Assembly: GCA_032622095.1 (NCBI GenBank)
Contig: CP136065.1
Coordinates: 244,527,474-244,591,473 of the forward strand
Length of the DNA stretch: 64,000 bases
Reading direction: 5' to 3'
From: Siphonodentalium dalli
Taxonomy: Eukaryota; Mollusca; Scaphopoda; Gadilida; Siphonodentaliidae
The notes under the pieces were generated by a model. It searched no databases. It worked only from the letters and a program-made list of their open reading frames with translations, and was not told where the DNA came from. How positions within the stretch are numbered: position 1 is the stretch's first letter; every line of letters begins with the position of its first letter. Both the position numbers and the translations under genes were made by a program. Shown piece by piece: positions 1-49,772 of this stretch.

Positions 1-1548
1 AGCAACTTCAGTTTTTCTGAACAATTCCTATGTTATGTAGGCTTATGAATTAGTTTCATTTTGACCATTTTCGTTGGTTAGCTGACCGAAAACCAGCGAA
101 GACGTCATGACCAGGTCCATGACGTCATTTACGTCAGTTGGTTTTGTGGGCCAGAATCCAGACACATTTGGTCTTTACCGGAAACACCGATTTCACATCA
201 CTAGACTAAACGCAATTATATTTACAAAATGGCCAAAGGACATTTTATATACAATGTGCACACAATAAATATGGGATCCCTCCCTACAAACGTGTTGTTT
301 GTTTGTTTGGTTGTCATTGTTCCTTTTTTGTTTGTTCTTCTTTTAAAACTAGTGAGTGCATATAAGATTATATTCTTCATCATGTTTTCAAATGTCATTT
401 TGACTATCAGTTTGAATTTTTGACCATGCAATGAGCTAATTCAGCTGCCTTCCACAATATATACACTTAAATGTAAATAAGAGACTTCTCTAAAGACCAT
501 TTTCTAGAATACAGACTGGATTCAAACGAGAGATGTTTTCTATTGACAAAAGCTAGCTAGCTAGCGCATGAAACTTTTCGCGCGAAAGATTTCCCCACTG
601 ATATTTTGGGATATAGCGCCCATATAAACATTTATATTTGTCATATATAAACGTGGGAAGTTGCTAGCTTTAGTTTGGCTGAAGGGGTCACTCTCACCAA
701 ACAAGTGCTGAAGGGTACACAGGATTCGCAAAATGTGCTGAAGGGTACACAGGGTTTGTGATCGCCACTAACACCGTTACGTAAACTGTGTTTCTGAAAG
801 TCTGGCGTCCATTAGCAGTTTGTTTTCAGTTCATTTTAATGTTCATTGGAACGTAAACAATTATTATATAAGAGAAATCATGGCAGATACGAAAACTAAA
901 CGTCATTTAGAATGACATTTCAAACCCTGTGTACCCTTCAGCACTTTTTTTTGTGAGAGTGACTCTTCAGCTTTAGTTTGGCATGGATGTGTATGAGTTG
1001 TTTTAACGAGATACGTGGTGGCAGGGTGGCTGTACTGTAGTGTTCCGCTGAATCCGCCCCTCCAACTTTGGTGAAAGTATTCAACATTTTTAAATCCCAT
1101 AACTGACACAGCAACAGTTGGAAACTACGTATATAGATGGAGATTGTTGTGATAGTTTGATGTATTTCTGTGGTTGCTCCACTACGTGTCCCGTGCGATC
1201 ATATTAGCATCTAGTACGGTTATATTCAATACAGTCATACGCGAAGGAATTTTGATGCAGCACCGGAATTTCATGTTAAATCGTAGGAAGTATCAAACAG
1301 TTTCCAAGTACATTTTAGGCACGCGGTGCAGGCGCGGGCACTCGACGCTGCTGTTATATCTGTAGTGGGGACAGTAATCAAGATATTTAGGTTATGGAGA
1401 AAATAACTTTAATAGCTAAATGTGTGACAACCACTAGTTTTACAGTATTATGTGGATCGACAGCTTAAGATTAAATTATATGTGCCTAAGAATATCTTCA
1501 TTATATTGTTGTGATGCCGCGCTGAATGCTCACCACTCTGCTATTCTC

Positions 1549-1930
1549 CTAACACGGTCTGATTTTCATCTCTGTCCACTTCAGTGAGTAGTAATACCCG
1601 CGAAACCACATCCACACACCACCTTGTGCGAAGAGATTCGTTATGCCGTGGAGATACTCTCCGTTGAGGTGGTTTCCGTGGCATGCTGAGAACCACCAAC
1701 CTCCCTTGTAGAACTCTGCACAGTGTTTGTTATCATGGACGTCATTGTCCTGGTCCAGCGTACTAAATGGGTATCCGTTGGTACTGAATGAGATGCCTGG
1801 GAATTAAACAAACGTGAACCGATAAGGGAAGTCTAACATCATGTTCAGCCTGATCCCATGTTGTCAGCGGGTAACCGATGAATGATTCGTCGCCTGTATT
1901 AAGTAGTGTACATACGAGTCCGTTGCGTTG
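1549..1930 (-). pseudogene. Fibrinogen-related (FReD) domain fragment, left arm copy
   Basis: This is the mirror copy of the right-arm fragment, read on the minus strand from about 1930 to the stop at 1549-1551. The last 77 residues, from codon 1782 downward, are open and end FRGYYYSLKWTEMKIRPC. It differs from the right copy in a few residues: GGVWMWFRG here against GVVWRWFRG there. The left version is closer to my memory of the family consensus. The same frame change separates it from the NTGDESFIGYPL part, so the break predates the palindrome or was copied between the arms. No promoter or start codon could be identified. Confidence 0.78.
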
Positions 1931-4900
1931 ATAATGGATTAACGCATACAACGTAGCTATTCTAATTTAAACGCAACGTAAGACGTAACGCATGCTTTAT
2001 ATGGTATTTAAGCGTGTGCGCCATGCTGTTTTATTTCTCAACCGACAAAAGATGGCGGCTGTATTCGAATCGAAGGAAAATCGGCTTATATTGGTGTCAA
2101 ATGAGACTGAGTCTAAGTTGTTTGCATTTAACAGGTTTTACATTATCGTAGAACTAATTTATTCCAGAAAGATTGATTTGCAATATTGCATTTATTACAA
2201 TAGCGAACGCATTAGCTGCAATTATTAATCAGAAGCTCTAATGCGACGTACGCGTCCGTGCGAACGATTTAACGCAGTCAACGGATCGTGTCATCGCAAA
2301 GTATGGACCAACGCAACTGATTCTTGTGAACATTACTTTACGAACAGGCGTACATGTAGACATGACAATGGAGGTCTAACAGAATGTGATGTCGCCACCA
2401 CCCTCACCCACCACCGGATTCTGGGTGGGGTACGCAGGATCCATAGCTCCTGTAGCCTGGACATCGAGCTTCATTATTCATGTTCGATTCAACAGTATTT
2501 AGGTGTCGAGAAAACAGTTTCTCAGCTTTTATAGCACCAACTTGTCCAAATGTTGATAATGGCGACAAAGTTCTACGAAATTCAGTCTCTGTGTATCTTT
2601 ACATTTTAAAGTTTTATACAGTGCATTACTATGTGTAATAACTATATTTTCTTAAAGTCCTTTGCAATGGCGGTTCCAGTCCAGGTATACTCTGTTTTGA
2701 TTATATCATGTTGCGGGGGATCAAATATATAGGGATGAATATGATAATTACTCCTATATGAACGTTATGTATCACAGATAAATTTATTCAAGTCGTAAAA
2801 TTTACAAAAGGCGAGCCCGCATTTTCTTCAGCATGGCGTAATATAGACCCATGTATGGACGTATCATTCACCACTCACTGTGAACGGGTATTCAAGATTC
2901 AGGGGGCAGAAAGTTGCCTAACAATTAATGTCGCTACCCGGGTTTCTTGCGGGTGAGTTCGAACGAAAGTAGCTACAAAAGACACCAATATAGCTACCCC
3001 CAAGTATATCGCATCAGCTCTGCCAACTCCGGCGAAACTTCCCGCCCTGGCCAGTAATCCTTGCTGTTGATGATTATGAACTAAATGTATTGGACCAATT
3101 GAAATTAGTTAGTACTACTTGTCAATTTTGTGATGAGCATGGCTGATAGAAAACGGTTAATATTCCAAACAACTGCGCAATTGCAACCACTACCGCTTCT
3201 ACCACTACTACTATGATTTCATGCGTAGCACATGTAGCCATTATATTTAAAGTCGCCGTCGCGAAAATTCTCAATATATGTTCATTTATTCATATTTGTA
3301 TCAAGTTATGCACACTTATTTAAGAAAACAATCCCCCGCTGTCTGAAAGATACGAGTGTTTACGACTGTGTGTGTCTGGATGATAGCCTGATGCCTCACC
3401 TCATTATCTATTTTGACGGAAACAGTTATTTGCGAGAAAGCGTGTGACGTATTCAAGGACCTTGTGTATTTCCCACTGAATGGCTGACACTGACAGAAAC
3501 ATTTTTGCGATCTGATTGTTCCTCGTCTGATTCGTCAGCAGAAGACACTTTAAATTTGACAACGGGAGCGTACATGCACGAGCCGGAATTACCACAAAAT
3601 TACCATGGTGTGAGACCACCAAACGATCCAGACCTTAGATGGCGAAGAGATGAAAATCGCGTACGAAAATGGTGAGTCACTGAGCGTCTCTTATTAAAAA
3701 TATCGCGGTCACTGGCAAAACATGTGAAAATAAAATTGATGTAAATACTAGCTAAAACCCCGTTTATACGAGCGGACATGTGTAATAATCATTACGCAAC
3801 TCATACATCGAAATGTGAAATATAATTCAAGGAAAAGTTGTGTGTCTGCCGAAATGTTAGTCTAAAAATATACCAGTAGTATTTTTTTTTACTAAAAATG
3901 TCAATTTTTTTATGTATTGAAATTCTGGATTCGACCACTGCCAGTCCATGGCTGCTCACGGATTGACATTGGATTCAGCTATTAGTATCAGTACAATGAC
4001 AATCAGAGACAGTGTTTGCACTGGCTAAAATAATAAATAATAATTTGCCAAAAATTAGCTAACTCTTGATTTGTGACATTGTCCAAGAAAAAAAAAGTGT
4101 CTTGAAAGTTGAATATTCAACATGTTAATTGTTATCTCGACACATCTTGAGATCCTGACATGCGCATCTCAAGCTCTGAACATATTACTAGTATCTCGCG
4201 ATATTATCTTGAGATCCCTGCATATGATTAATCATCTCACTTGGACCACAATGAATCTGTCTTCAAAATGATATACAATGTACCATATACATGTACTGTT
4301 ATAGAAAATATCCACACCAAGATATTATCTCGACTCTCTCGAGATTTCGAGAAAAGAATCTTGAGATATTAACATATTTTCTCAAGATCTCAAGAAAATA
4401 TGCAGAGATCTCAAGATAATATCGCGAGATACTAGTAATATGTTCAGAACTTGAGATGCGCATGTCAGGATCTCAAGATGTGTCGAGATAACAATTAACA
4501 TGTTGAATATTCAACTTTCAAGACACTTTTTTTTTTCTTGGACAATGTCACAAATCAAGAGTTAGCTAATTTTTGGCAAATTATTATTTATTATTTTAGC
4601 CAGTGCAAACACTGTCTCTGATGTCATAGTACTGATACTAATAGCTGAATCCAATGTCAATCCGTGAGCAGCCATGGACTGGCAGTGGTCGAGTCCAGAA
4701 TTTCAATACATCAAAAAATTGACATTTTTAGTAAAAAAAATACTACTGGTATATTTTTAGACTAACATTTCGGCAGACACACAACTTTTCCTTGAATTAT
4801 ATTTCACATTTCGATGTATTGCACATTATTACACATGTCCGCTCGTATAAACGGGGTTTTAGCTAGTATTTACATCAATTTTATTTTCACATGTTTTGCC

Positions 4901-6686
4901 AGTGACCGCGATATTTTTAATAAGAGACGCTCAGTGACTCACCATTTTCGTACGCGATTTTTATCTCTTCGCCATCCAAGGTCTGGATCGTTTGGTGGTC
5001 TCACACCATGGTAATTTTGTGGTAATTCCGGCTCGTGCATGTACGCTCCCGTTGTCAAATTTGAAGTGTCTTCTGCTGACGAATCAGACGAGGAACAATC
5101 AGATCGCAAAAATGTTTCTGTCAGTGTCAGCCATTCAGTGGGAAATACCCAAGGTCCTTGAATACGTCACATGCACGCTTTCTCGCAAATAACTGTTTCC
5201 GTCAAAATAGATAATGAGGTGAGTCATCAGGCTATCATCCAGACACACACAGTCGTAAACACTCGTATCTTTCAGACAGCGGGGGATTGTTTTCTTAAAT
5301 AAGTGTGCATAACTTGATACAAATATGAATAAATGAACATATATTGAGAATTTTCGCGACGGCGACTTTAAATATAATGGCTACATGTGCTACGCATGAA
5401 ATCATAGTAGTAGTGGTAGAAGCGGTAGTGGTTGCAATTGCGCAGTTGTTTGGAATATTAACCGTTTTCTATCAGCCATGCTCATCACAAAATTGACAAG
5501 TAGTACTAACTAATTTCAATTGGTCCAATACATTTAGTTCATAATCATCAACAGCAAGGATTACTGGCCAGGGCGGGAAGTTTCGCCGGAGTTGGCAGAG
5601 CTGATGCGATATACTTGGGGGTAGCTATATTGGTGTCTTTTGTAGCTACTTTCGTTCGAACTCACCCGCAAGAAACCCGGGTAGCGACATTAATTGTTAG
5701 GCAACTTTCTGCCCCCTGAATCTTGAATACCCGTTCACAGTGAGTGGTGAATGATACGTCCATACATGGGTCTATATTACGCCATGCTGAAGAAAATGCG
5801 GGCTCGCCTTTTGTAAATTTTACGACTTGAATAAATTTATCTGTGATACATAACGTTCATATAGGAGTAATTATCATATTCATCCATATATTTTTGATCC
5901 CCCGCAACATGATATAATCAAAACAGAGTATACCTGGACTGGAACCGCCATTGCAAAGGACTTTAAGAAAATATAGTTATTACACATAGTAATGCACTGT
6001 ATTAAACTTTAAAATGTAAAGATACACAGAGACTGAATTTCGTAGAACTTTGTCGCCATTATCAACATTTGGACAAGTTGGTTCTATAAAAGATTAGAAA
6101 CTGTTTTGTCGACACCTAAATACTGTTGAATCGAACATGAATAATGAAGCTCGATGTCCAGGCTACAGGAGCTATGGTTCCTGCGTACCCCACCCAGAAT
6201 CCGGTGGTGGGTGAGGGTGGTGGCGACATCACATTCTGTTAGACCTCCATTATCATGTCTACATGTACGCCTGTTCGTAAAGTAATGTTCACAAGAATCA
6301 GTTGCGTTGGTCCATACTTTGCGATGACACGATCCGTTGACTGCGTTAAATCGTTCGCACGGACGCGTACGTCGCATTAGAGCTTCTGATTAATAATTGA
6401 AGCTAATGCGTTCGCTATTGTAATAAATGCATTATTGCAAATCAATCTTTCTGGAATAAATTAGTTCTACGATAATGTAAAACCTGTTAAATGCAAACAA
6501 CTTAGACTCAGTCTCATTTGACACCAATATAAGCCGATTTTCCTTCGATTCGAATACAGCCGCCATCTGTTGTCGGTTGAGAAATAAAACAGCATGGCGC
6601 ACACGCTTAAATACCATATAAAGCATGCGTTACGTCTTACGTTGCGTTTAAATTAGAATAGCTACGTTGTATGCGTTAATCCATTA

Positions 6687-7070
6687 TCAACGCAACGGAC
6701 TCGTATGTACACTATTTAATACAGGCGACGAATCATTCATCGGTTACACGCTGACAACATGGGATCAGGCTGAACATGATATTAGACTTCCCTTATCGTG
6801 TGCACGTTTGTTTAATTCCCAGGCAACCCATTCAGTACCAACGGATACCCATTTAGTACGCTGGACCAGGACAATGACGTCCATGATAACAAACACTGTG
6901 CAGAGTTCTACAAGGGAGGTTGGTGGTTCTCAGCATGCCACGGAAACCACCTCAACGGAGAGTATCTCCACGGCCTATCGAATCTCTTCGCACAAGGTGT
7001 GGTGTGGAGGTGGTTTCGCGGGTATTACTACTCACTGAAGTGGACAGAGATGAAAATCAGACCGTGTTAG
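6687..7070 (+). pseudogene. Fibrinogen-related (FReD) C-terminal domain fragment, right arm
   Basis: From 6837 to the stop at 7070 the frame reads NGYPFSTLDQDND, then CAEFYKGGWWFSACHGNHLN, then FRGYYYSLKWTEMKIRP. These are the calcium-site loop, the conserved cysteine pair with the WW motif, and the closing strand of fibrinogen C-terminal domains. The stretch before it (about 6687-6836) reads NTGDESFIGYTL in a different frame and matches the preceding VGDE..YTL part of the same domain, so a frame change or lost intron lies near 6830. The N-terminal half of the domain (normally ~210 residues), any signal peptide and any collagen or immunoglobulin region are missing. FReDs are secreted lectin-like recognition proteins, greatly expanded in molluscs and amphioxus. 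Most likely this is a captured exon pair that has decayed. Confidence 0.8.
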
Positions 7071-8402
7071 GAGAATAGCAGAGTGGTGAGCATTCAGCGC
7101 GGCATCACAACAATATAATGAAGATATTCTTAGGCACATATAATTTAATCTTAAGCTGTCGATCCACATAATACTGTAAAACTAGTGGTTGTCACACATT
7201 TAGCTATTAAAGTTATTTTCTCCATAACCTAAATATCTTGATTACTGTCCCCACTACAGATATAACAGCAGCGTCGAGTGACCGCGCCTGCACCGCGTGC
7301 CTAAAATGTACTTGGAAACTGTTTGATACTTCCTACGATTTAACATGAAATTCCGGTGCTGCATCAAAATTCCTTCGCGTATGACTGTATTGAATATAAC
7401 CGTACTAGATGCTAATATGATCGCACGTGACACGTAGTGGAGCAACCACAGAAATACATCAAACTATCACAACAATCTCCATCTATATACGTAGTTTCCA
7501 ACTGTTGCTGTGTCAGTTATGGGATTTCAAAATGTTGAATACTTTCACCAAAGTTGGAGGGGCGGATTCCGCGGAACACTACAGTACAACCACCCTGCCA
7601 CCACGTATCTCGTTAAAACAACTCATACACATCCATGCCAAACTAAAGCTGAAGGGGTCACTCTCACAAAAAAATGTGCTGAAGGGTACACAGGGTTTGA
7701 AATGTCATTCTAAATGACGTTTAGTTTTCGTATCTGCCATGATTTCTCTTATAGAATAATTGTTTACGTTCCAATGAACATTAAAATGAACTGAAAACAA
7801 ACTGCTAATGGACGCCAGACTTTCAGAAACACAGTTTAAGTAACGGTGTTAGTGGCGATCACAAACCCTGTGTACCCTTCAGCACATTTTGCGAATCCTG
7901 TGTACCCTTCAGCACTTGTTTGGTGAGAGTGACCCCTTCAGCCAAACTAAAGCTAGCAACTTCCCACGTTTATATATGACAAATATAAATGTTTATATGG
8001 GCGCTATATCCCAAAATATCAGTGGGGAAATCTTTCGCGCGAACAGTTTCATGAGCTAGCTAGCTAGCTTTTGTCAATAGAAAACATCTCTCGTTTGAAT
8101 CCAGTCTGTATTCTAGAAAATGGTCTTTAGAGAAGTCTCTTAATTACATTTAAATATATTGTGGAAGGCAGCTGAATTAGCTCATTGCATGGTCAAAAAT
8201 TCAAACTGATAGTCAAAATGACATTTGAAAACATGATGAAGAATATAATCTTATATGCACTCACTAGTTTTAAAAGAAGAACAAACAAAAAAGGAACAAT
8301 GAAAACCAAACAAACAAACAACACGTTTGTAGGGAGGGATCCCATATTTATTGTGTGCACATTGTATATAAAATGTCCTTTGGCCATTTTGTATATATAA
8401 TT

Positions 8403-8862
8403 GCGTTTAGTCTAGTGATGTGAAATCGGTGTTTCCGGTAAAGACCAAATGTGTCTGGATTCTGGCCCACAAAACCAACTGACGTAAATGACGTCATGGA
8501 CCTGGTCATGACGTCTTCGCTGGTTTTCGGTCAGCTAACCAACGAAAATGGTCAAAATGAAACTAATTCATAAGCCTACATAACATAGGAATTGTTCAGA
8601 AAAACTGAAGTTGCTAATTTCATAACCATCCCACTTGGTCCACTTCCGATTCCGTGATTTCACAATTTGATATTATTGTTCCCACAAGGCTTGGCAAAAG
8701 CGGAGCGGAAGTCACCCATTTTTCTTGACCGGATTTTCATCGCGTCGAAATTCTGTTTCATGGTATTGTAAAAATTAATGACGTCATTCACGCCTAAACA
8801 TGAAAAGCAACAACGCGCCTATTCAATGTATACTAATATGATCGTACGTGACACGTAACGGG
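8403..8862 (+). repeat. ~450 bp repeat at the edge of palindrome 1 (copy 1)
   Basis: This segment recurs at 10433-10862 with clear but imperfect identity, including the words GACGTCATGGACC and ATTGTTCAGAAAAACT and the closing AAAAGCAACAACGCGCCT. It crosses position 8614, where pairing with the window start stops only because the window begins. The repeat unit therefore probably extends to the left of the window too. The start (8403-8613) is also present inverted at 1-211. Confidence 0.75.
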
Positions 8863-8879
8863 GCAACCACACGCGGTGC

Positions 8880-9660
8880 TTCGTCGGATCTAGTTATGCG
8901 AAATTTGACCAGATTTGACCTTGAATTTACCGTTTTGAATGTCAATGTCAGGTCGGGGTTACGAGTTAAGCCGTCCAAAACACTGCCCGGACAAAAGTAT
9001 CCCTAGCTATCGAATATCGTCAAGATCCGCCACTATTACCCGATTTGATCTTGAATCGACCATTTTGAAGATCAAGCATCACACTTTGACCCGTCCAAAA
9101 CACTTCCCGGACAAACGTACACTTAGGTATCAAGTTTCGTCGAAATCCGTCCGGAAGTTTTCCCGGCCATAGATAACAGACAAAAGTCACAAACTATACA
9201 TTAGGTTTTAGCTGGGTACCTGTCTGACGGGCATGTGGGTGAGACGAAATTTGTTGGCATCCCCATCTACACCAACACCCCAAAAAATGGTGGAAATCGG
9301 CCCAGTGGATACCCAGATACAGTTCAATGTCATTTAAAATCTCAAGTTCACGCCGCACGGGCATCCGGGTGTGACGAAATTGCTCAGCGCCTGAAACTAC
9401 CCCCACATACCAAATTTGGTGAAAATCGGCTCAGCGGAGAACTTGAGTTCAAGGTCATTTGAAGGTCAAGGTCACGCCGCACGGGCAAACGGATACACCC
9501 ATGTTAGTCCTCAGGTCAAACTACATACCCGTACCAAGTTTCGTCAAAATCGGTTAGCCGTTTCCGATTCCATCGCGGAAACACACACACACATACAAAC
9601 ACACACACCCACACGCACAGACCACAAACTTTCCTCAAATATATAATAGATTCTTTATGG
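8880..9660 (+). mobile_element. Non-LTR retrotransposon (RTE-like) 3' tails, truncated
   Basis: The text repeats a phrase of the form 'caaGTTTCGTCaAAATCGGTTAGCCGTTTccg', followed by an ACAC microsatellite (about 9580-9622) and a short ATATATAATAGAT terminus. This is the style of 3' untranslated end seen in invertebrate RTE-type LINEs. A second similar tail closes at about 9160-9200 (GTCCGGAAGTTTTCCCGGCC, then ACAAACTATACATTAG). Weakly repeated ~140 bp units with ACGCCGCACGGGCA lie at 9340-9500. No reverse transcriptase frame is present, consistent with severe 5' truncation. Confidence 0.55.
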
Positions 9661-10432
9661 AGGTCAAGTTTAAATTGATATCGTACTCCCATGTTTCTGT
9701 AGGAGCCTCGATACCGGTATATTTCTAAAGGATAGCTATAAAAGGCCTCTGAATATTGACATGAGCGCGTACATCGCAACACATATCTAGCAAAATGGCC
9801 ATTTAAGTGAGATGTCTTTCAACAGAGGTCAAGGTCGTTTTATGGTGAAGGTCAAGGTCATATAAGCCCCCCACATCAACTTGACAACAAATTTGGTTGA
9901 GGCTTAATTCCAACTTCTCCAACGAAGGCGACCCATGTTATGATGGACATATAATTTGACTTCCTCGCCGCCACCACTGCTCACAAATGATTTTAAATAA
10001 TAAGCGCGTTCCGAATACCTGTGAATACCTGGCAGCCAGCCAATACTATTCGCGCGACATACAACCGTGAAAAAATCCCCCTTGTTAGGGTAGATTGGTT
10101 CAATCATTTATCTCGAAGGAATTGATAAGCCGCTGATATTCCTGTGAGGCCAAATCGTTGCGAGACGGGAACTTATTGAATATGTTGTCCGCCTATTAGG
10201 GGGTTTTTCGCTAATCAATTTGTCCGGAGGAAAATTACACGCAGCTAAGGCGGGATCGTTATTACAAAACACCATAAGTAAACATCGGCGCAACACACGA
10301 TGTCGTGCTATACGTTGTTGGAAAGGGTACATCCTTGGCTATTCAACTGTGGTAATTTGATTCTGAAGCAGGCACGTTTGCTTGTGCTATTTTCGCATAT
10401 ATCTTTTGCGAAAACGGTTATAAATGCAACCA

Positions 10433-10862
10433 AGTCTAGTATACTGATGTGAAATCAGTGTTTCCTGCGGAGACCAATTTTTTCTGGATTCTAGCCCACA
10501 ACACCAAATGACGCAAATGACGTCATGGACCATGTCATGACGTCTTCGCTGATTTTATTCAGCTAACCAACGAAATTGGTCAAACGAAACTAATCTATAG
10601 GCCAAAATCACGTAGGAATTGTTCAGAAAAACTAAAGTTGTTAATTTTATAACCATCCCGTTTGTCCACTTCCGATTCTGTGTCACCGTTTCTTTTTGGG
10701 ATATTATTGTTCCCATGATACTATGCGAAAGCGAAGCGGAAGTCACGTGATTTTTAACCCATTTTTCTTGTCCGCATTTTCATCGCGTCGAAATGCTGTT
10801 TCATGGTATTGTAAAAATTAATGACGTCATTCACGCCTAAACTTGAAAAGCAACAACGCGCC
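10433..10862 (+). repeat. ~430 bp repeat, solo diverged copy
   Basis: This is a diverged solo copy of 8403-8862, ending at the same CAACAACGCGCCT and not followed by shared sequence. A solo copy suggests an independently mobile unit or a solo terminal repeat, but no coding sequence or target duplication was found. The 9660-10432 stretch before it holds nothing I recognise. Confidence 0.7.
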
Positions 10863-11086
10863 TGCGAATTGGATGGATGATTCAACTCATTAAAGGTATT
10901 CAATCCGATAAAACTCCTCTCAATTACTATTATCTGTTGGAATTTTTCAACTAGGCTAAATAAAAAATGCAAATTTAGACTAAAATCAAGCCAGAAATAT
11001 CAAGATTCTACCTGGTTAAAGTCTGAATTTTCCAACTGCATGCTGTTAAATTGGAGGGTTAAATTTTCCAACTATTAGTAGTATTT

Positions 11087-11505
11087 GATCAATGGGGGGG
11101 GGTACAACCACATCCATGTTCATACATGGACATTATATTTATTTCGGTTCAGAACCCCATGCCACTCCACATAAAACCCTAATATAGCATATTTTGGTAC
11201 CAGCTTGAGGGCTAAATTATTTTATCAATTGGGGGGGGGGGGGTACAACCACATCAATGTTCATGCATGGACATTATATTTATATCGGTTCAGAACCCCA
11301 TGCCACTCCACATAAAACCCTAATATAGCATATTTTGGTACCAGCTTGAGGGCTAAATTATTTGATCAATGAGGGGGGGGGGTACAACCACATCCATGTT
11401 AATGCATGGACATTATATGTATTTCGGTTCAAAACACCTTGCCACTGCATATAAAACCCTATTATAGCATATTTTTGGCACCAGCTTGAGGGATAAATTA
11501 AAAGT
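11087..11505. repeat. Minisatellite, three ~140 bp units with G-runs
   Basis: Three units begin with a run of 8-12 G and TACAACCACATC (at about 11103, 11246 and 11384), each followed by GGACATTATAT and CCAGCTTGAGGG. Unit lengths are near 143 and 138 bp. From 11506 to 12221 I see no gene and no clear repeat. Confidence 0.85.
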
Positions 11506-12221
11506 TTTATATGTTGATACAAAGATTGTAGATTACGACCGTAATATGAGTTCAATTATGTCCATATGTGTTTGTTATTGGTGGTTTATAATCTATTTAA
11601 ATACTAGCGACTCAGTTTTAACTCCAATATACAAAAATGTTTCAGTGTAAGGCATTTTACATGGTGTAATCGAATGTTTACCGTGCGTTCAATACAAATA
11701 ATAAAAAAAATACCGTGCGTTCAATGTTTTTTTGTCAAATATTACCGTGCGTTCAATTCTGTTGGAGCACCACGCTTTGAAATCGGGCTCGTATTTCGGG
11801 AAAACACATGAAACGGGGGACAAACGCTAAGCGTGGCTTTCAATGGGATATTAAGGCATCCAAAACATGTCTTTGTTATAAAATAAGACATGGTATAGTT
11901 TGAAAAATGTGCTTTTGATCGCAAACGTGACGTGTTTTTAGCACGAAAATAGGAGGTTTAAACTTGATTTACGAGAGAACTAGACACGGTACTGAAACGA
12001 AATTAGTACGAAAATGTAGCGAAATATACCCCTCATCGAGGCAGGTTGGCATCCGGGCTATGATTGTGACACAATTGGAGGGAAAGACGAAAATATACGT
12101 ACCGTAGTCAAGCTGAGGCGAGCGACTTTTATTTATGTTCGATTACCGCGATACATCGTTCACTTCCGTTCCTACACAGTGTTTTCCACCCTTCTGATTT
12201 TTTTCTGTAGTATAATCGGAT

Positions 12222-15362: not shown

Positions 15363-15368
15363 CAGAAG
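15363..15368 (+). repeat. 6 bp target-site duplication, left
   Basis: CAGAAG directly before the AG terminus of the palindromic element; matched at 23961-23966. The host reading frame is continuous if one copy is counted. Confidence 0.85.
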
Positions 15369-15439
15369 AGAAGAATAGATGTCTCGTTCGCGCCACATCT
15401 AAAAATAGAATCTTTGGGTCTAAAATTGTTTGTACTAAA

Positions 15440-15610
15440 ATATTCCCAAAATATCAAAACCCAAAACAAAATTTCAAAAAATCCAAAATTTATTTTTTCC
15501 AAAAAATTTCAAAACCCTAAAATTAATTTTTTCCACAAAAAATTTCAAAACCCCCAAATTTCAAAAAAAGAAAAAATTTCAAAACCCTCAAAATTATTTC
15601 TCTAAAAAAA
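15440..15610. repeat. AT-rich degenerate tandem repeat in left terminal zone
   Basis: Repeated phrases of the type 'tttcAAAACCCcaaaattt...tttttCc' with a ~30-40 bp period lie ~75 bp inside the element end. They are mirrored at about 23720-23885. Open frames across it (for example the C-terminal part of a 163-codon frame starting at 15114) are low-complexity and not considered genes. Confidence 0.75.
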
Positions 15611-15986
15611 AGTTTAAATAAAAAATTTATAACGAGTTTTTTCGGTTTCTGATAATCTCGATATTAAAAAATATCGAATGTTAAATTATTTGCGCGTAAT
15701 ATCTTTCGTTATTTTTTTGTTCAACCAATGTTTCAATGTATTTATTAATCGATGTTTAGAAATATCTTTATACCAATTATATGTGTATGGACAGTCGCTG
15801 TAATGTTGGACATTGTGACCAACGGTATGAATGCATACATTCCAGTGTTTAACGGACGCAGTTCATATAATTGTCATACCTGAAAATAGACACCATTACT
15901 TTTTACATAAATAATAAAGAGCGTTTATTCTTTACTTATCTCTATATGAAGTTATTGAGTATATGACAGGCGTGTATTTTCGTCAA

Positions 15987-16193
15987 TTATTGGAAGTATT
16001 GAAATGTACTATGTTGAATCCCTAACGGTCGAAAATTGTAAGGCGAAATTACAACCCCCCAGAATGAACTGTCATATTGAATGAATGATGATTTAATCTC
16101 AGCCATTTTTACATGGAACATGAGCGATGTACACGCAATCACACACGCCACATTGGTGTTAACAATGTGTCTTTCACACCTTTGCTTTACCAA
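15987..16193 (-). CDS. Small unrecognised ORF in left arm (68 aa)
   Basis: A 68-codon frame starting MVKQRCERHI is preserved identically in both arms (mirror at 23136-23342) and is read in the same outward direction as the ATPase. I do not recognise it. Identity between arms is expected from the palindrome and is no proof of selection, so it may be a chance frame. Confidence 0.2.
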   Translation of the reverse strand: MVKQRCERHIVNTNVACVIACTSLMFHVKMAEIKSSFIQYDSSFWGVVISPYNFRPLGIQHSTFQYFQ

Positions 16194-16639
16194 ATGAATT
16201 ATATTATTTCCCCGGTCACAGCTATATGGTATTCAGAAAACATATCGATTTGAGCAGAAATAGTTGTTTAACGGGTTAGTATCAATTAAGGTTGATAAAC
16301 TGTGTCATTCACACGATAATTAGTTAGCCAAAAACATGCATACATATTACGTCAGGTCGTGAGACACTCAATTATACAAATTGCTTTGATGGCATTGTTA
16401 TAACAACATTACGTAATAACCCCTTATCACTCCATTCACACTTACGACCATTTTGTATGCCGAAAACTACAGGTAGCACCGATGATGTAACATTATATCA
16501 CTGCTATTGTACCAATGATAAATTCAGACATGTTCCATGTTTAGAAAAATAGATAATCTGCAGGTGTTCACTTGACAAGAGATTTTGTACACTCAATCAC
16601 AGACCAACGTGATAATACCAGCCCACACCCAACCCCCAA

Positions 16640-16691
16640 GTTACCTATAATTCTGCTGTGGTTAAGCCACAACAACAACAACAACAACACC

Positions 16692-16731
<40 letters not shown>

Positions 16732-16862
16732 GTCACCAAGCGACATAACATCCTGTTTTGATGATCCAATGGCCAATGTCCATGAAGATTTTATTTCCGA
16801 TGCAAGTCATATTTCAGACTAACTCCTGAAAAGTTACCTATAATTCTGCTGTGGTTAAGCAG
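16640..16862 (+). repeat. Chimeric duplication of ATPase polyQ block and centre flank (left arm)
   Basis: A CAA run and the following ~70 bp (CACCAAGCGACATAACATCC onward) repeat the ATPase coding region just after its polyQ tract. They are bracketed by two direct copies of TTACCTATAATTCTGCTGTG, a word that also flanks the palindrome centre (near 19455-19475 and 19860-19880). It is a non-coding patchwork of the element's own central sequences. Mirror at 22473-22695. Confidence 0.75.
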
Positions 16863-17052
16863 TCCATTATTTAGGGCATACCTGTATGTAGGCCTACCAG
16901 TGGATGAATAGTCTGCCGGAGAAGTACTGTGTAGACAGGTCTTGTCGGTAAGAAAGTCAGACGAGTAGTGAAGGCTCGGCTATTAAAACATAGTAATGCG
17001 ATAGCGAACATCAAACGAGTCTGCGCACGCATATCTGTCAAAGGATACAAGG

Positions 17053-17135
17053 GCAGTCATTGGTCAATTTATCCCCGGTGTCAGCTCAGTACAATGGCAG
17101 TCATTGGTCAATTTATCCCCAGGTGTCAGCTCAGT
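17053..17135 (+). repeat. Two-unit ~40 bp direct repeat (left arm)
   Basis: GGCAGTCATTGGTCAATTTA and GTGTCAGCTCAGTACA occur twice in tandem. The mirror lies at about 22195-22280. It falls within a basic 65-codon frame (start 16968) that I judge unproven. Confidence 0.75.
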
Positions 17136-17475
17136 ACACAATCGGCACGAAGCCGGAGGTCATAATTACTCTTACGAATGAAGAGCGTTGAACATATACG
17201 AAATTATTACACGAATGAACTGAAATTTATATTTCACATCTTACCAACAACAGATACAGACATAGTCATAGTGTTATATTATCTTACATGTACCCATGCT
17301 ATGACATACTTAAAGGGGGATAATGCACACACGGTGTGTGGAATGTTAAAGTGACACGAGGTAAGGGACGTTATGTAATATTGGTGTGTGAATATTAAAG
17401 GAGCATTCTCGCTATACAAACCCCCCTCCCCACTTATAGATATATAACGAAGACGAGAATAACATGTTGATGAAG

Positions 17476-17481
17476 TTTATT
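17476..17481 (-). terminator. Polyadenylation signal AATAAA, left ATPase gene
   Basis: TTTATT on the plus strand is AATAAA on the minus strand, just after the left ATPase stop. Confidence 0.6.
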
Positions 17482-17486
17482 GAAAT

Positions 17487-19026
17487 TTAATCATTGTCTG
17501 AATCTTCGACCGTTAGATTTACTTCTAAGAGTTTCTTGAATTTTCTCATCGCTTCATCTGCAGCCCATTCATTATTATATCCGCGTTTGGTCAGTTTGAC
17601 CATTTTCTTCATGATCGTGTTATGTATGGGTGATGTTTTCAATCGATACTGGTATTCTATTAATCGTCTATAACTTTTGAGAAACAGAACAAACTCTGTG
17701 TCGATGGTATCCTCTTTTCCCGACATGCTCTCATCTCCCGAAATGCTCTCTTCTTCTTTCACATCAGTGGTGACGCGTTTCATCATACTTTTGAATGTGT
17801 CCATCTCGTTGACACATCGCGCAGCTTTCTTAAGACCGAATACCGTTCTACTACCGACGACATTACCATCTTTTGAATCTGATAGCGTTCCTCGTTCATC
17901 TTCATCTGTATCTTCTCCGAAGAGAGTTGTTTTTGTCTCGGACATAGCTCCGTGTTCATCCGGGTCCTCAGTTAATTTTCGTTTTAACTTATTTTCTTGA
18001 CACCAGTTTTTTACGTGTCTCTGAACATCATAATGATCTGCGAACAAAAGCCCGCATTCATTACAAGGGTACGACATGTCTTCTCGAATGTCTATACGTT
18101 TCTTCTTATTAATTTCATCGAGCTCACCAGGTGGCCGTATGTCGTTAGTATAGTCATTATGTTGACCCTGGGGCACAATATAATTATATGTTATGCCCTT
18201 CTGTTGACCAGGGAGTTCTCTGTCATCGTATTTCATCGCATTCTGTTGACCCAGGGTCTCAGTGTCTTTTGTATGTTTTTTCATCCCATTCTGTTCATCT
18301 GGGTGTTCTCTGTCTTTTTGGAGATTATATTTCATGCCATTCCATTCACCCCTATGTTGGTTCGTGTCCTCTTTTAGTACATTCTGTCGCAGACGTAATG
18401 TGTCCGGTGTTGCGGCTTTTAAATCCACAAGTAGGTAACCGTACGGTTCACTCGTCGCTTCCGAAAACTCTCGAACCATACGCTGAGGACATTCAGGATA
18501 CATCTGTCTTGATAATGTTGAAATTAATCCCTTGTCGATTGGGTTATTGAACAATACCAAATATTGACAATTTCGTCGTTGCGTTGGATCTTTGTTGTAG
18601 TAGAAATTCTGGTTCAAACTTATCAAAGATAAGTTCAAATGGTGACTTCCTTCGGAATGCAAATCATTAACTCTCTGGTCTTTTGATGAAGTTTGCATCA
18701 AGTCATCGAGTATAACTAGATTTTTATACCGGGGGTTGATAAGCGAATCCAAGTTTGCTGGTATTCCTCGTATAAAGTTGACCTGAGGGGTGACGGTATA
18801 CTTTAATTCGTCATATAGGGGCTGCCAATATTTATAAAACCATATTATTCTGTCAGGTGCGGGTGATATTTTTGAGGCAGACTTTTGTAGTAAGGTTTTC
18901 ACGAAGTATGTCTTACCACAAGATGTCGGTCCACTTACACATGCCGTGAATGGATGCTTGAAAATAAAATCTTCATGGACATTGGCCATTGGATCATCAA
19001 AGCAGGATGTTATGTCGCTTGGTGGC

Positions 19027-19078
<52 letters not shown>

Positions 19079-19247
19079 GGGGGTGATGATACTGTTGTTG
19101 TTGTTGTTGTTGTTGTTGTGGCTGATGATACTGTTGTTGTTGCTGTTGTTGTTGTTGTTCGGAAGGCGTGTGTTTAACTTTGATATGACGCTTCAAACTA
19201 TCTTGCCAAGCATAGACACTTAAGCACTCTTCACATTGATACTTCAT
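17487..19247 (-). CDS. Zinc-finger/polyQ packaging-type ATPase, left arm copy (586 aa)
   Basis: The product starts with a C2H2 finger (C5, C8, H21, H26), followed by a Q-rich tract (31-74) broken by YHQP and YHHP. A P-loop ATPase domain follows, with Walker A GPTSCGKT (106-113), Walker B NLVILDDL (176-183) and a conserved SLNQNFYY (210-217). Loose repeats of an NGMKY-type motif occupy 300-355, a second finger lies at C395, C398, H411 and C416, and an acidic, then lysine-rich tail ends the protein. The ATPase core resembles FtsK/HerA-like DNA-packaging ATPases of Polintons and relatives, which pump genomes into capsids; this is family inference. The frame is open. It is transcribed outward from the palindrome centre, with AATAAA (17476-17481 on the minus strand) right after the stop. 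The long frame fixes the start at 19247, since the zinc finger begins there. Confidence 0.82.
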
Positions 19248-19566
19248 TTAACTAGTTCAGGCTGTCGTTCACAACGTCTCTTAGTGTTGTTTGTACTGGA
19301 TACAAATTTATCACATTAGCTACAATACAACCTACCTATCCAAATGTCAATGCAATTATGAGTGATTTCAATATGAACACTCTATTATATAGATATGTGT
19401 AACCTGGTGACTGACATGATGATACAGTTATGCACTAAATAAAGGACTGCTTAACCACAGCAGAATTATAGGTAACTTTTCAGGAGTTAGTCGGAAATAT
19501 GGCTTGTTGCCATTCATCGGAAAGCTCTCGCCGCCGGCGGATGTTTTGGCGGCGGCATTGCGGTGG

Positions 19567-19599
<33 letters not shown>

Positions 19600-19731
19600 G
19601 ACGCCGGCGGCGGCGGCGGCGGCGGCATTGCAGTATTTTACTGAGGGGGTCCGCCGGCGGCGGACCCCGGCGGCGGCGGCGGCACCGCCGCCGCAGTAAA
19701 ATACCGCAATGCCGCCGCCGCCGCCGGCGTC

Positions 19732-19767
<36 letters not shown>

Positions 19768-20087
19768 CCACCGCAATGCCGCCGCCAACAACATCCGCCG
19801 GCGGCGAGAGCTTTCCGATGAATGGCAACAAGCCATATTTCCGACTAACTCCTGAAAAGTTACCTATAATTCTGCTGTGGTTAAGCAGTCCTTTATTTAG
19901 TGCATAACTGTATCATCATGTCAGTCACCAGGTTACACATATCTATATAATAGAGTGTTCATATTGAAATCACTCATAATTGCATTGACATTTGGATAGG
20001 TAGGTTGTATTGTAGCTAATGTGATAAATTTGTATCCAGTACAAACAACACTAAGAGACGTTGTGAACGACAGCCTGAACTAGTTAA
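19248..20087. promoter_or_regulatory. Shared centre of the palindrome: candidate divergent promoter region
   Basis: An 840 bp spacer separates the two outward ATPase start codons. Its middle (about 19530-19800) is made of CGG/GCC and CAA/TTG runs arranged symmetrically around ~19667 and could form a long GC-rich stem. Each side carries the word TTACCTATAATTCTGCTGTG. No TATA box is convincing. That it drives both genes is inferred from position only. Confidence 0.4.
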
Positions 20088-20259
20088 ATGAAGTATCAAT
20101 GTGAAGAGTGCTTAAGTGTCTATGCTTGGCAAGATAGTTTGAAGCGTCATATCAAAGTTAAACACACGCCTTCCGAACAACAACAACAACAGCAACAACA
20201 ACAGTATCATCAGCCACAACAACAACAACAACAACAACAACAACAGTATCATCACCCCC

Positions 20260-20308
<49 letters not shown>

Positions 20309-21848
20309 GCCACCAAGCGACATAACATCCTGCTTTGATGATCCAATGGCCAATGTCCATGAAGATTTTATTTTCAAGCATCCATTCACGGCATGTGTAA
20401 GTGGACCGACATCTTGTGGTAAGACATACTTCGTGAAAACCTTACTACAAAAGTCTGCCTCAAAAATATCACCCGCACCTGACAGAATAATATGGTTTTA
20501 TAAATATTGGCAGCCCCTATATGACGAATTAAAGTATACCGTCACCCCTCAGGTCAACTTTATACGAGGAATACCAGCAAACTTGGATTCGCTTATCAAC
20601 CCCCGGTATAAAAATCTAGTTATACTCGATGACTTGATGCAAACTTCATCAAAAGACCAGAGAGTTAATGATTTGCATTCCGAAGGAAGTCACCATTTGA
20701 ACTTATCTTTGATAAGTTTGAACCAGAATTTCTACTACAACAAAGATCCAACGCAACGACGAAATTGTCAATATTTGGTATTGTTCAATAACCCAATCGA
20801 CAAGGGATTAATTTCAACATTATCAAGACAGATGTATCCTGAATGTCCTCAGCGTATGGTTCGAGAGTTTTCGGAAGCGACGAGTGAACCGTACGGTTAC
20901 CTACTTGTGGATTTAAAAGCCGCAACACCGGACACATTACGTCTGCGACAGAATGTACTAAAAGAGGACACGAACCAACATAGGGGTGAATGGAATGGCA
21001 TGAAATATAATCTCCAAAAAGACAGAGAACACCCAGATGAACAGAATGGGATGAAAAAACATACAAAAGACACTGAGACCCTGGGTCAACAGAATGCGAT
21101 GAAATACGATGACAGAGAACTCCCTGGTCAACAGAAGGGCATAACATATAATTATATTGTGCCCCAGGGTCAACATAATGACTATACTAACGACATACGG
21201 CCACCTGGTGAGCTCGATGAAATTAATAAGAAGAAACGTATAGACATTCGAGAAGACATGTCGTACCCTTGTAATGAATGCGGGCTTTTGTTCGCAGATC
21301 ATTATGATGTTCAGAGACACGTAAAAAACTGGTGTCAAGAAAATAAGTTAAAACGAAAATTAACTGAGGACCCGGATGAACACGGAGCTATGTCCGAGAC
21401 AAAAACAACTCTCTTCGGAGAAGATACAGATGAAGATGAACGAGGAACGCTATCAGATTCAAAAGATGGTAATGTCGTCGGTAGTAGAACGGTATTCGGT
21501 CTTAAGAAAGCTGCGCGATGTGTCAACGAGATGGACACATTCAAAAGTATGATGAAACGCGTCACCACTGATGTGAAAGAAGAAGAGAGCATTTCGGGAG
21601 ATGAGAGCATGTCGGGAAAAGAGGATACCATCGACACAGAGTTTGTTCTGTTTCTCAAAAGTTATAGACGATTAATAGAATACCAGTATCGATTGAAAAC
21701 ATCACCCATACATAACACGATCATGAAGAAAATGGTCAAACTGACCAAACGCGGATATAATAATGAATGGGCTGCAGATGAAGCGATGAGAAAATTCAAG
21801 AAACTCTTAGAAGTAAATCTAACGGTCGAAGATTCAGACAATGATTAA
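20088..21848 (+). CDS. Zinc-finger/polyQ packaging-type ATPase, right arm copy (586 aa)
   Basis: Mirror copy of the left-arm gene, with the same 586-residue length. The only protein differences I see are polyQ run lengths: 9/10/17 glutamines here against 9/9/18 in the left copy. These are the kind of CAA/CAG slippage expected soon after duplication. Domain order is the same: C2H2 finger, Q tract, P-loop ATPase with Walker A near 106 and Walker B near 176, NGMKY-type repeats, second finger near 395, charged tail. AATAAA at 21854-21859 follows the stop by a few bases. Expression would start from the shared 840 bp centre. If an element of this type relied on helpers, the ATPase alone could not make particles; no capsid genes accompany it. 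Confidence 0.82.
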
Positions 21849-21853
21849 ATTTC

Positions 21854-21859
21854 AATAAA
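21854..21859 (+). terminator. Polyadenylation signal AATAAA, right ATPase gene
   Basis: AATAAA begins six bases after the right ATPase stop; the mirrored signal is 17476-17481 on the minus strand. Confidence 0.6.
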
Positions 21860-22472
21860 CTTCATCAACATGTTATTCTCGTCTTCGTTATATATCTATA
21901 AGTGGGGAGGGGGGTTTGTATAGCGAGAATGCTCCTTTAATATTCACACACCAATATTACATAACGTCCCTTACCTCGTGTCACTTTAACATTCCACACA
22001 CCGTGTGTGCATTATCCCCCTTTAAGTATGTCATAGCATGGGTACATGTAAGATAATATAACACTATGACTATGTCTGTATCTGTTGTTGGTAAGATGTG
22101 AAATATAAATTTCAGTTCATTCGTGTAATAATTTCGTATATGTTCAACGCTCTTCATTCGTAAGAGTAATTATGACCTCCGGCTTCGTGCCGATTGTGTA
22201 CTGAGCTGACACCTGGGGATAAATTGACCAATGACTGCCATTGTACTGAGCTGACACCGGGGATAAATTGACCAATGACTGCCCTTGTATCCTTTGACAG
22301 ATATGCGTGCGCAGACTCGTTTGATGTTCGCTATCGCATTACTATGTTTTAATAGCCGAGCCTTCACTACTCGTCTGACTTTCTTACCGACAAGACCTGT
22401 CTACACAGTACTTCTCCGGCAGACTATTCATCCACTGGTAGGCCTACATACAGGTATGCCCTAAATAATGGA

Positions 22473-22603
22473 CTGCTTAACCACAGCAGAATTATAGGTA
22501 ACTTTTCAGGAGTTAGTCTGAAATATGACTTGCATCGGAAATAAAATCTTCATGGACATTGGCCATTGGATCATCAAAACAGGATGTTATGTCGCTTGGT
22601 GAC

Positions 22604-22637
<34 letters not shown>

Positions 22638-22695
22638 GGTGTTGTTGTTGTTGTTGTTGTGGCTTAACCACAGCAGAATTATAGGTAACTTGGGG
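22473..22695 (-). repeat. Chimeric duplication of ATPase polyQ block and centre flank (right arm)
   Basis: Mirror copy of 16640-16862. It contains the reverse complement of the CAA run, the ATPase fragment, and both bracket words. Confidence 0.75.
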
Positions 22696-23135
22696 GTTGG
22701 GTGTGGGCTGGTATTATCACGTTGGTCTGTGATTGAGTGTACAAAATCTCTTGTCAAGTGAACACCTGCAGATTATCTATTTTTCTAAACATGGAACATG
22801 TCTGAATTTATCATTGGTACAATAGCAGTGATATAATGTTACATCATCGGTGCTACCTGTAGTTTTCGGCATACAAAATGGTCGTAAGTGTGAATGGAGT
22901 GATAAGGGGTTATTACGTAATGTTGTTATAACAATGCCATCAAAGCAATTTGTATAATTGAGTGTCTCACGACCTGACGTAATATGTATGCATGTTTTTG
23001 GCTAACTAATTATCGTGTGAATGACACAGTTTATCAACCTTAATTGATACTAACCCGTTAAACAACTATTTCTGCTCAAATCGATATGTTTTCTGAATAC
23101 CATATAGCTGTGACCGGGGAAATAATAGAATTCAT

Positions 23136-23342
23136 TTGGTAAAGCAAAGGTGTGAAAGACACATTGTTAACACCAATGTGGCGTGTGTGATTGCGTGTAC
23201 ATCGCTCATGTTCCATGTAAAAATGGCTGAGATTAAATCATCATTCATTCAATATGACAGTTCATTCTGGGGGGTTGTAATTTCGCCTTACAATTTTCGA
23301 CCGTTAGGGATTCAACATAGTACATTTCAATACTTCCAATAA
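23136..23342 (+). CDS. Small unrecognised ORF in right arm (68 aa)
   Basis: Mirror copy of the 15987-16193 frame, with the same predicted product. It lies between the ATPase 3' end and the terminal zone, on the same strand as the right-arm ATPase. No motif is recognisable. Confidence 0.2.
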   Translation: MVKQRCERHIVNTNVACVIACTSLMFHVKMAEIKSSFIQYDSSFWGVVISPYNFRPLGIQHSTFQYFQ

Positions 23343-23719
23343 TTGACGAAAATACACGCCTGTCATATACTCAATAACTTCATATAGAGATAAGTAAAGA
23401 ATAAACGCTCTTTATTATTTATGTAAAAAGTAATGGTGTCTATTTTCAGGTATGACAATTATATGAACTGCGTCCGTTAAACACTGGAATGTATGCATTC
23501 ATACCGTTGGTCACAATGTCCAACATTACAGCGACTGTCCATACACATATAATTGGTATAAAGATATTTCTAAACATCGATTAATAAATACATTGAAACA
23601 TTGGTTGAACAAAAAAATAACGAAAGATATTACGCGCAAATAATTTAACATTCGATATTTTTTAATATCGAGATTATCAGAAACCGAAAAAACTCGTTAT
23701 AAATTTTTTATTTAAACTT

Positions 23720-23885
23720 TTTTTTAGAGAAATAATTTTGAGGGTTTTGAAATTTTTTCTTTTTTTGAAATTTGGGGGTTTTGAAATTTTTTGTGGAAAA
23801 AATTAATTTTAGGGTTTTGAAATTTTTTGGAAAAAATAAATTTTGGATTTTTTGAAATTTTTTTTTGGGTTTTGATATTTTGGGA
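23720..23885. repeat. AT-rich degenerate tandem repeat in right terminal zone
   Basis: Mirror of 15440-15610, with one- or two-base differences in homopolymer length. Confidence 0.75.
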
Positions 23886-23960
23886 ATATTTTAGTACAAA
23901 CAATTTTAGACCCAAAGATTCTATTTTTAGATGTGGCGCGAACGAGACATCTATTCTTCT

Positions 23961-23966
23961 CAGAAG
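23961..23966 (+). repeat. 6 bp target-site duplication, right
   Basis: CAGAAG directly after the CT terminus of the palindromic element; matches 15363-15368. Confidence 0.85.
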
Positions 23967-43062: not shown

Positions 43063-43394
43063 ATGTTCAGATAATAACATTAACAAACGACCTCATTATC
43101 TGAACACGAATCATTCAGCTTTTGTGTTATCCTATTTTTTTCAGTCTGTCGTCTGCTTTTATTACGTGAACACCCCTTAATTAATAATAGACTGTTCCAA
43201 TGATACTTTTATAACTGGATAATCAATATAGGGTTTAAGTTATCGCTCTGTGGTTGTTTTGACCTGCTGACTGTCTTATGATGTTGATGGGGCATAATGA
43301 TGTCGTTAAAATGCGCGGTAGTTCCTTCAGCCATATCAAGGAAAAAATCAGATACGATCTAGCGGCTGACACGACGAAAAACATCAAAAAAACA

Positions 43395-49499: not shown

Positions 49500-49772
49500 T
49501 CCCATTGAGGGAACATTTCGCTTTACGAAATTAGGTTTTGGATGTCACCATTCAATTGGGAGATATATAGATTCATCTGAGGGAAGATATGTTCATATAT
49601 CAAAACGTGGCCTGGTTTGACGATACCTTCCGGGTTGGTGAGACCACGTACACGGGGGTGAACATCCGCCAGGGTACCCCAAGTCAAATTTGATTGAAAT
49701 CGGTCCAGGGATCTGGGAGAAATATCCAGACAGACGGATCCTACTCTGTTGTTATATATAAAGATGACAAGC
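49500..49772 (+). mobile_element. LINE (RTE-like) 3' end
   Basis: CAAATTTGATTGAAATCGGTCC, then CCAGACAGACGG and TATATATAAAGAT, is a typical RTE-like 3' terminus. In copy 2 (to 60352) the last part is missing. Confidence 0.55.

Follow-up and report, generated by a model that had tools for sequence, protein, structure and literature searches.

Can a large DNA transposon be a palindrome from one end to the other, and does it move in that form? The question is raised by a stretch of 64,000 bp from the scaphopod mollusc Siphonodentalium dalli (assembly GCA_032622095.1, contig CP136065.1; below C5:244527474-244591473, or simply the window), part of a genome of 2.23 Gb in 9 contigs. The window contains an element of 8,592 bp with the ends of a Polinton/Maverick transposon, whose two arms are near-identical mirror images. 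This element is one of a large family of palindromic satellites in the genome. From the sequence comparisons set out below, we consider that it is probably a satellite dependent on an autonomous Polinton, moving and integrating as a palindrome.

The palindromic element in the window

The element occupies positions 15369..23960 and lies between two copies of the target site duplication CAGAAG (15363..15368 and 23961..23966; direct reading and script match). By direct reading it starts with AGAAGAATAG and ends with CTATTCTTCT. When the window is compared with itself by blastn, the element gives a single inverted match, 15368-23961, 99.1% identical over 8,622 columns. The observation of the initial annotation, a near-perfect 8,592 bp palindrome between CAGAAG copies, is therefore confirmed in full. 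Outside the GC-rich centre the arms differ by single bases at 15467 and 16201, by a 6-base indel in a CAA run and by a shift of a triplet run near 19077-19092. The palindrome ends at the element borders and the flanks lie outside the symmetry.

Like Polinton/Maverick elements, the window element has AG...CT ends, a 6 bp target duplication, inverted repeats and a packaging ATPase. Unlike them, it has no unique core between terminal repeats: the whole element is the repeat, and genes for the polymerase PolB, the integrase and the capsid were not found in the arm. In intact vertebrate Mavericks the repeats measure 46-1,447 bp, with a mean of 402 bp, according to the available text of a study of these elements, in which "palindrom" does not occur (PMC8097293).

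The end motif AGAAGAATAGATG is itself variable: the bases after AGAAGAATAG differ from copy to copy, yet are the same at both ends in 11/11 copies checked. The short variable stretch reads ATGT, ATGC, GGGG, CCGC, CCGT and others, and the agreement between the two ends holds in palindromic and autonomous copies alike. It may record errors of end copying or priming.

A large family of palindromic copies

A 433 bp query from the element end was searched against the genome (2,165 first-look candidates, the best 40 scored), and ends were then paired. Pairing of the 40 scored candidates gave two kinds of elements, a 16.4 kb autonomous Polinton and palindromes. The search for further copies suggested in the initial annotation was thus carried out in part, and it added seven palindromic copies that were read at length. 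With the window element they represent four arm types: type A, 8.6 kb (the window, L009 and L010); type B, 9.05 and 9.1 kb (L011 and L012); type C, 11.2 and 10.6 kb (L013/14 and L021/22); and type D (L025), whose right arm is cut short and for which no right end was found within 821 added bases. Each of the six complete copies among these seven has its own 6 bp duplication. Duplications of 6 bp and AG...CT ends are present in every one of the 11 complete elements checked, seven of them palindromic and four autonomous, and no two of the 11 duplications are the same; in L013/14, 3 extra bases separate the left duplication from the end motif.

The abundance of the family was estimated with a 40-mer of the arm just upstream of the ATPase start. 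Allowing up to 2 mismatches, it has 599 matches in the genome (305 + 294), and the backward control has 0. The window element is hence no one-off but one member of a large family. Among the first 100 listed matches (contigs C1 and C2), 80 make 40 -/+ pairs within 6 kb, all outward-facing, and none make +/- neighbour pairs within that distance. The remaining close neighbours are one --++ group of four (C2:154299308-154303821), seemingly a palindrome nested in or extended by another. A control 40-mer from the autonomous core (the 153 amino acid (aa) open reading frame (ORF) of L015, 4923-4962) has 183 matches (96 + 87). Inspection by eye of the 100 listed ones showed no mirror pair within 6 kb; they include a triplet on one strand and a -/+ pair with a spacing of 12 kb, which belongs to two neighbouring elements (L023/24 and the next). 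A probe from the ATPase gene gave 2,280 candidates; the 40 scored were all 100% identical, and 26 of them form 13 -/+ pairs 2.8-2.9 kb apart, while mates of the other 14 may rank below the best 40. Finally, 27 of the 35 further centres fetched have a main stem with 140 or more nested pairs; in the other eight the main stem found is shorter, partly from off-centre pieces.

The initial annotation had left open whether the palindromic form itself integrates. The copies at other loci with their own 6 bp duplications, together with the mirror pairs, bear this out, and mobility in palindromic form is well supported. The count of palindromic against single-arm copies was completed in part: it yielded the 40 mirror pairs, and a single-arm parent was not established.

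The autonomous helper and the origin of the arms

The autonomous Polinton, below called the helper, is 16.4 kb long and has inverted repeats of about 1.2 kb around a unique core. Four copies with two ends (L015/16, L017/18, L019/20 and L023/24) and three with one end (L026, L027 and L028) were found. Scanned against Pfam, its nine ORFs include DNA_pol_B_2 (1e-51), rve (6e-15) with a chromodomain, an ATPase with weak A32/AAA hits, TBP and PC4; four have no clear family. The capsid candidate is a 421 aa ORF with 165 homologs. Its relative P0122 (54% identical) was modelled with a pLDDT of 88.5, and the fold matches capsid chains of mavirus, Sputnik, PBCV-1 and iridovirus; judged through this model, the 421 aa ORF is a double jelly-roll capsid-fold protein. 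The helper gene set agrees with the Polinton set given in the accessible part of a published description (PMC4028283), except for the unrecognised adenovirus-like cysteine protease, the nine ORFs scanned having zero Pfam protease matches. The mid-core of the helper (L016, L018, L019, L023 and L026-L028) also has a GGGCGGGC-type repeat run with G+C above 90%.

The Polinton kinship assigned initially is borne out by the helper-type ends, the 6 bp duplications and the presence of an autonomous relative in the same genome. The description as a whole Polinton is not. In a tblastn search of the window left arm at 1e-3, eight helper proteins, including PolB, integrase and capsid, had no match, and the ATPase alone matched. 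Because genes for PolB and integrase were not found in the arm, the window element is a satellite of the 16.4 kb Polinton and not an autonomous one.

Counted from 15366, the window arm matches the autonomous ends up to arm position 1274 in 7/7 ATPase-side cases and up to 1204 in 4/4 PolB-side cases. For the window (type A) arm, which this comparison covers, it follows that both arms bear the ATPase-side end of the helper. The matching part is 15369..16639 (+) in the left arm, mirrored at 22690..23960 (-) in the right arm (coordinates by symmetry). Past the shared end, none of the autonomous pieces compared matches the window arm at the nucleotide level. The type C arm of L013 retains 20 aa of the capsid ORF (its start, at 4755-4814; 80% identical) and 36 aa of the 153 aa ORF (its end, at 5120-5221; 67% identical). 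The two ORFs are neighbours in the helper, and their pieces in L013 lie on one strand. With these remnants, type C looks cut down from a Polinton of the helper's kind.

Types C and D also have a decayed copy of the sub-terminal repeat, 76-86% identical, beside the axis (L013 5702-5878 and 6029-6205; centres of L021 and L025). The arrangement looks as if an older mini-element had sat there.

The packaging ATPase

Each window arm has one long ORF of 586 aa, directed from the axis outward: 17487..19247 on the reverse strand, with an intact mirror copy at 20088..21848 on the forward strand, whose protein is the one that was modelled. It encodes a C2H2 finger, a Q-rich linker, an A32/B204-type packaging ATPase, another C2H2 finger and a helical C-terminal domain. 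In Pfam it matches Pox_A32 (1.2e-5, above the cut-off) and C2H2 fingers, and ten further frames of the left arm gave zero families above the cut-off; the ATPase with zinc fingers is the sole recognised gene of the element. An AlphaFold2 model has a mean pLDDT of 71, high in the ATPase and finger parts, and its nearest fold is the genome-packaging NTPase B204 of Sulfolobus turreted icosahedral virus (STIV). By sequence, the relatives among solved structures are just zinc fingers and a weak match to the Q-rich part. The ATPase has 188 homologs; many of the named ones among the best 120 are from bivalves (Pecten, Mizuhopecten, Pinctada, Mytilus, Mya, Ruditapes and Solemya). IMG/VR, queried with the protein and with the alignment, gave zero relatives. 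The helper ATPase is 31% identical to that of the window over 206 aa.

Types A and B have the ATPase core in common and differ in the linker and the C-terminal domain. Type C has a 192 aa ORF with a finger and an A-like C-terminal domain, without the ATPase part. The ATPase with zinc fingers suggests that satellites of types A and B may compete for helper capsids through a packaging-type enzyme of their own.

Two side observations concern these genes. In each window arm, about 118 bp of the arm's own ATPase coding sequence, the piece surrounding the Q-run and SDITSCFDDPMANVHEDF, is present a second time in inverted orientation (16679-16796 and 18962-19079; mirror positions 20259-20373 and 22539-22656). 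In L034, longer arms (1059-1980 and its mirror) code for a fragment of a different A32-like ATPase (90 codons) and for another ORF of 225 codons.

The axis and its predicted fold

The two window arms meet in a region (19600..19735) that is predicted to fold as DNA into a stem with two apical hairpins, a T shape. It consists of the A arm of the stem (19627..19643, +), the small palindrome C-C' with the sequence GGGGGTCCGCCGGCGGCGGACCCC (19645..19668), the small palindrome B-B' made of GGC/GCC repeats (19669..19692) and the A' arm (19693..19711, +; GCAGTAAAATACCGCAATG). The axis motif GGGTCCGCCGNCGGCGGACCC is found in all eight palindromic copies, types A-D, with one base changed in L011, and in none of 11 autonomous pieces. 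Most copies run from the A stem through the GGC/GCC and then the GGGGTCC small palindrome to the A' stem. The window and L013 have these two palindromes swapped, which amounts to the other orientation, since the element is palindromic. The stem with two apical hairpins is predicted in 8/8 copies and recurs beside different arm sequences; the z-scores of the fold energies mirror palindromy and are no proof alone.

Arms alike within copies, and mosaics

The arms of a copy are more alike than the copies are. With the axis excluded, arm-arm mismatch is 0.24% in the window (mostly the triplet-run shift), 0.05% in L009, 0.12% in L010, 0.05% in L011 and 0.07% in L012; for inner parts it is 0.14% in L013 and 0.26% in L021. 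Type A copies differ from each other by 0.49% (window-L009), 0.39% (window-L010) and 0.20% (L009-L010), and the type B copies L011 and L012 by 1.2% (53 of 4,287 aligned bases), with further pieces rearranged. Six palindromes show 0-2 arm differences over the first 1,150 bp, and four autonomous copies show 2-18. Such low mismatch between arms while copies diverge means that the two arms are kept the same, or that they were equalised not long before insertion.

The type A arm looks like a mosaic: its part 1879-2588 matches type C (88%) and its part 2588-3778 matches type B (95%), although the recombinant may be any of the types compared. The join at 2588 is present in both arms, because the arms are alike. 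This join, the domain differences among the ORFs, and L072, in which a type A arm is joined to type B sequence (an A/B hybrid), suggest a half-genome stage that may have recombined and then been copied into both arms.

A proposed cycle and its alternatives

The distinct mode of propagation proposed initially would fit with the near-identical arms within copies and with the shared T-folding axis. Hairpin replication and packaging hijack, as we infer them, could proceed as follows. The protein-primed PolB of the helper would initiate at the shared end. The displaced strand, being self-complementary, would snap back at the axis into a hairpin of 4.3 kb, half the length, and copying round the hairpin loop would restore the duplex palindrome. 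Mismatch repair within the hairpin would equalise the arms. The helper integrase would then insert the palindrome, and the satellite's own ATPase would compete for helper capsids. In the lineage of the window, the T-shaped axis could serve as a hairpin telomere or as the nucleus of the snap-back. We regard a helper-dependent satellite with this snap-back replication as the probable explanation.

Several observations weigh against it. The axis motif (up to 1 mismatch) is in 14/40 sampled mirror pairs (C1 and C2), with some mark of it in 21/40, although a few of the 40 fetched pieces may miss the axis; a T kept in just 14/40 is not required for integration or for upkeep of the palindrome. Packaging hijack is not general either, as the type C ORF is without the ATPase core, and dN/dS of that core, with 3-4 changes only, is uninformative. 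Of 20 unpaired matches among the 100 listed, eight were fetched, and six, which are fragments, a hybrid or relatives that continue differently, are not mirror-symmetric over 2.2 kb inward: L072 is the A/B hybrid, L071 and L075 pass into other sequence (the hairpin arms of L075 are just about 45 bp), L077 departs from the arm at an earlier point, and L070 and L076 run on beyond the point at which L033 has its axis, into sequence common to both. Among the other unpaired matches, L073 is mirrored with a mutated mate, and L074 has a mirrored centre with one arm partly lost. L070 and L076 were considered as a single-arm parent, without success: the pieces fetched on their outer side are without any end of the palindromic family.

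The axes themselves vary. Longer pieces were folded for 13 motif-bearing centres beyond the eight (L010 excluded): seven have the T at the apex (L035, L041, L042, L056, L057, L061 and L069), two have it within a more branched apex (L038 and L044), and four fold otherwise (L039, L040, L058 and L066), again a point on the opposing side. L034, L050 and L067 have a common unrelated axis, also with a two-hairpin fold, and further copies have plain-loop axes. It is possible, at somewhat less than an even chance, that the T axis has no role, and that GC triplet repeats at the axis simply fold so and persist because an asymmetric centre lowers the fragility of the palindrome. The motif is, after all, missing in 26/40 sampled pairs, other axes are loops or unrelated sequence, and the four deviant centres fit such a view. 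On the other side, the same B and C small palindromes and the same A stem recur where the axis-adjacent arms differ, and they fold alike in 8/8.

It is unlikely, in our estimate, that the palindromes are recurrent by-products of Polinton replication, in which aborted strands fold back and copy themselves and found no lineages of their own. That reading draws on arm sequences that have their axis at several different points (near 1740, 1790 and 2150 on the L034 arm; near 640 and 1230 on the L033 arm), on the derivation of both window arms from a single helper end and on the capsid-gene scraps in type C. It also draws on L064, in which the arms meet over a 71-base loop at AAGTGA/TCACTT, an inverted word found in the longer L033 arm. 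Fold-back copying predicts such a scar, and central deletion through short homology leaves the same one; the differing axes can derive from central deletion of older palindromes and equally from fresh snap-back, which tempers the case for the cycle above. Against the by-product reading, the window arms beyond the shared end are without nucleotide match to the autonomous pieces and the ATPases are 31% identical; one axis motif is common to four arm types; and type A is present at three loci, 0.2-0.5% apart, with the same axis motif. The shared motif, the divergent type A copies and the unmatched arms argue that the main types, at the least, have spread in palindromic form.

That the palindrome arose at this locus once the element had inserted, through gene conversion or inverted duplication, is very improbable: such an origin has the standing of a general possibility, and the conversion offered initially as an alternative origin is not needed, given seven further palindromes, six of them complete with their own duplications, and 40 mirror pairs per 100 listed arm matches against 0 within 6 kb per 100 listed core matches. 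Just as improbable is an artefact of assembly or read fold-back, for although long reads sometimes yield false palindromes, the window palindrome stops at the element ends without entering the flanks, the complete palindromes do so exactly, with duplications and unlike flanks, the arms have private differences, and the autonomous core is unmirrored within 6 kb among the listed matches.

Returning to the helper-dependent satellite, we tentatively suggest, with rather less confidence than in the cycle itself, a new class of mobile genome. It would be a self-complementary replicon with one origin, capped at the closed end by a T hairpin telomere like that of a parvovirus and bearing a Polinton terminus at the open end, and its integrated form would be a head-to-head dimer. 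It would parasitise a polintovirus for copying, insertion and capsids, and recombination of the half genome would mirror every change.

Other repeats in the window

A second, larger inverted duplication lies to the left of the element (1-4225 versus 4398-8615, 98.3%, with a 172 bp centre). It continues leftward beyond the window (L030) and rightward to about 12000, its identity falling outward to about 93%, and among the listed ORFs of 120 aa or more, positions 1-12000 have a single one, of 123 aa. The structure resembles an inverted duplication of genomic sequence and not a member of the palindromic satellite family. Further right, several blocks are in direct duplication (48766-53952 versus 59394-63881; 94-97%), and there is a 70 bp tandem array of 17 copies (43380-44563).

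Relation to known systems

The terminal repeat of adeno-associated virus (AAV) has the plan A, B-B', C-C', A' and forms a double hairpin, as described in the available text of a published account (PMC11575299). The satellites resemble AAV and parvoviruses in this A-BB'-CC'-A' T hairpin, predicted in 8/8 copies, and in their presumed helper dependence. Unlike in those viruses, the hairpin is at the axis and not at the termini, and the likeness is one of the plan of the fold, not a comparison of sequence. The scanned window-arm frames have no Pfam match to Rep or parvoviral capsid genes. At most, the satellite works alike; it is not a member of the AAV/parvovirus group.

Adenoviruses produce symmetric defective genomes, palindromes of one genome end that arise by fold-back. 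The window satellite is similar in being a palindrome of one end, with a presumed fold-back origin; the satellites differ in being lineages with their own gene and many integrated copies. Phage satellites and virophages that redirect packaging are likewise small elements with a packaging gene and a capsid-making helper, but they are unlike the present ones, whose genome is palindromic and bears the helper's own ends and whose hijack is putative. In bidnaviruses, according to the accessible part of a published analysis, a parvovirus-type single-stranded DNA genome is joined to a protein-primed PolB (PMC4061559); the likeness of the satellite to them is a design parallel only, with no common gene shown. 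No equivalent of palindromic Polintons was found in the literature searched, judged by titles and the openings of abstracts; subscription papers and Repbase reports, which lay outside the search, may hold an earlier description.

Implications

Giant palindromes are usually unstable. In this genome, despite that instability, a giant palindrome is the form in which an abundant element has spread, and the copies provide a palindrome series for studying how an animal genome tolerates palindromes. To our knowledge, the replication mode of Polintons has never been observed directly. If the proposed cycle is true, Polintons support satellites with self-complementary genomes and their replication mode becomes testable; extrachromosomal DNA in hairpin form with one protein-bound end would be predicted. 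The satellites would also represent a natural pairing of a Polinton end with an AAV-like hairpin, which bears on the possible origin of bidnaviruses.

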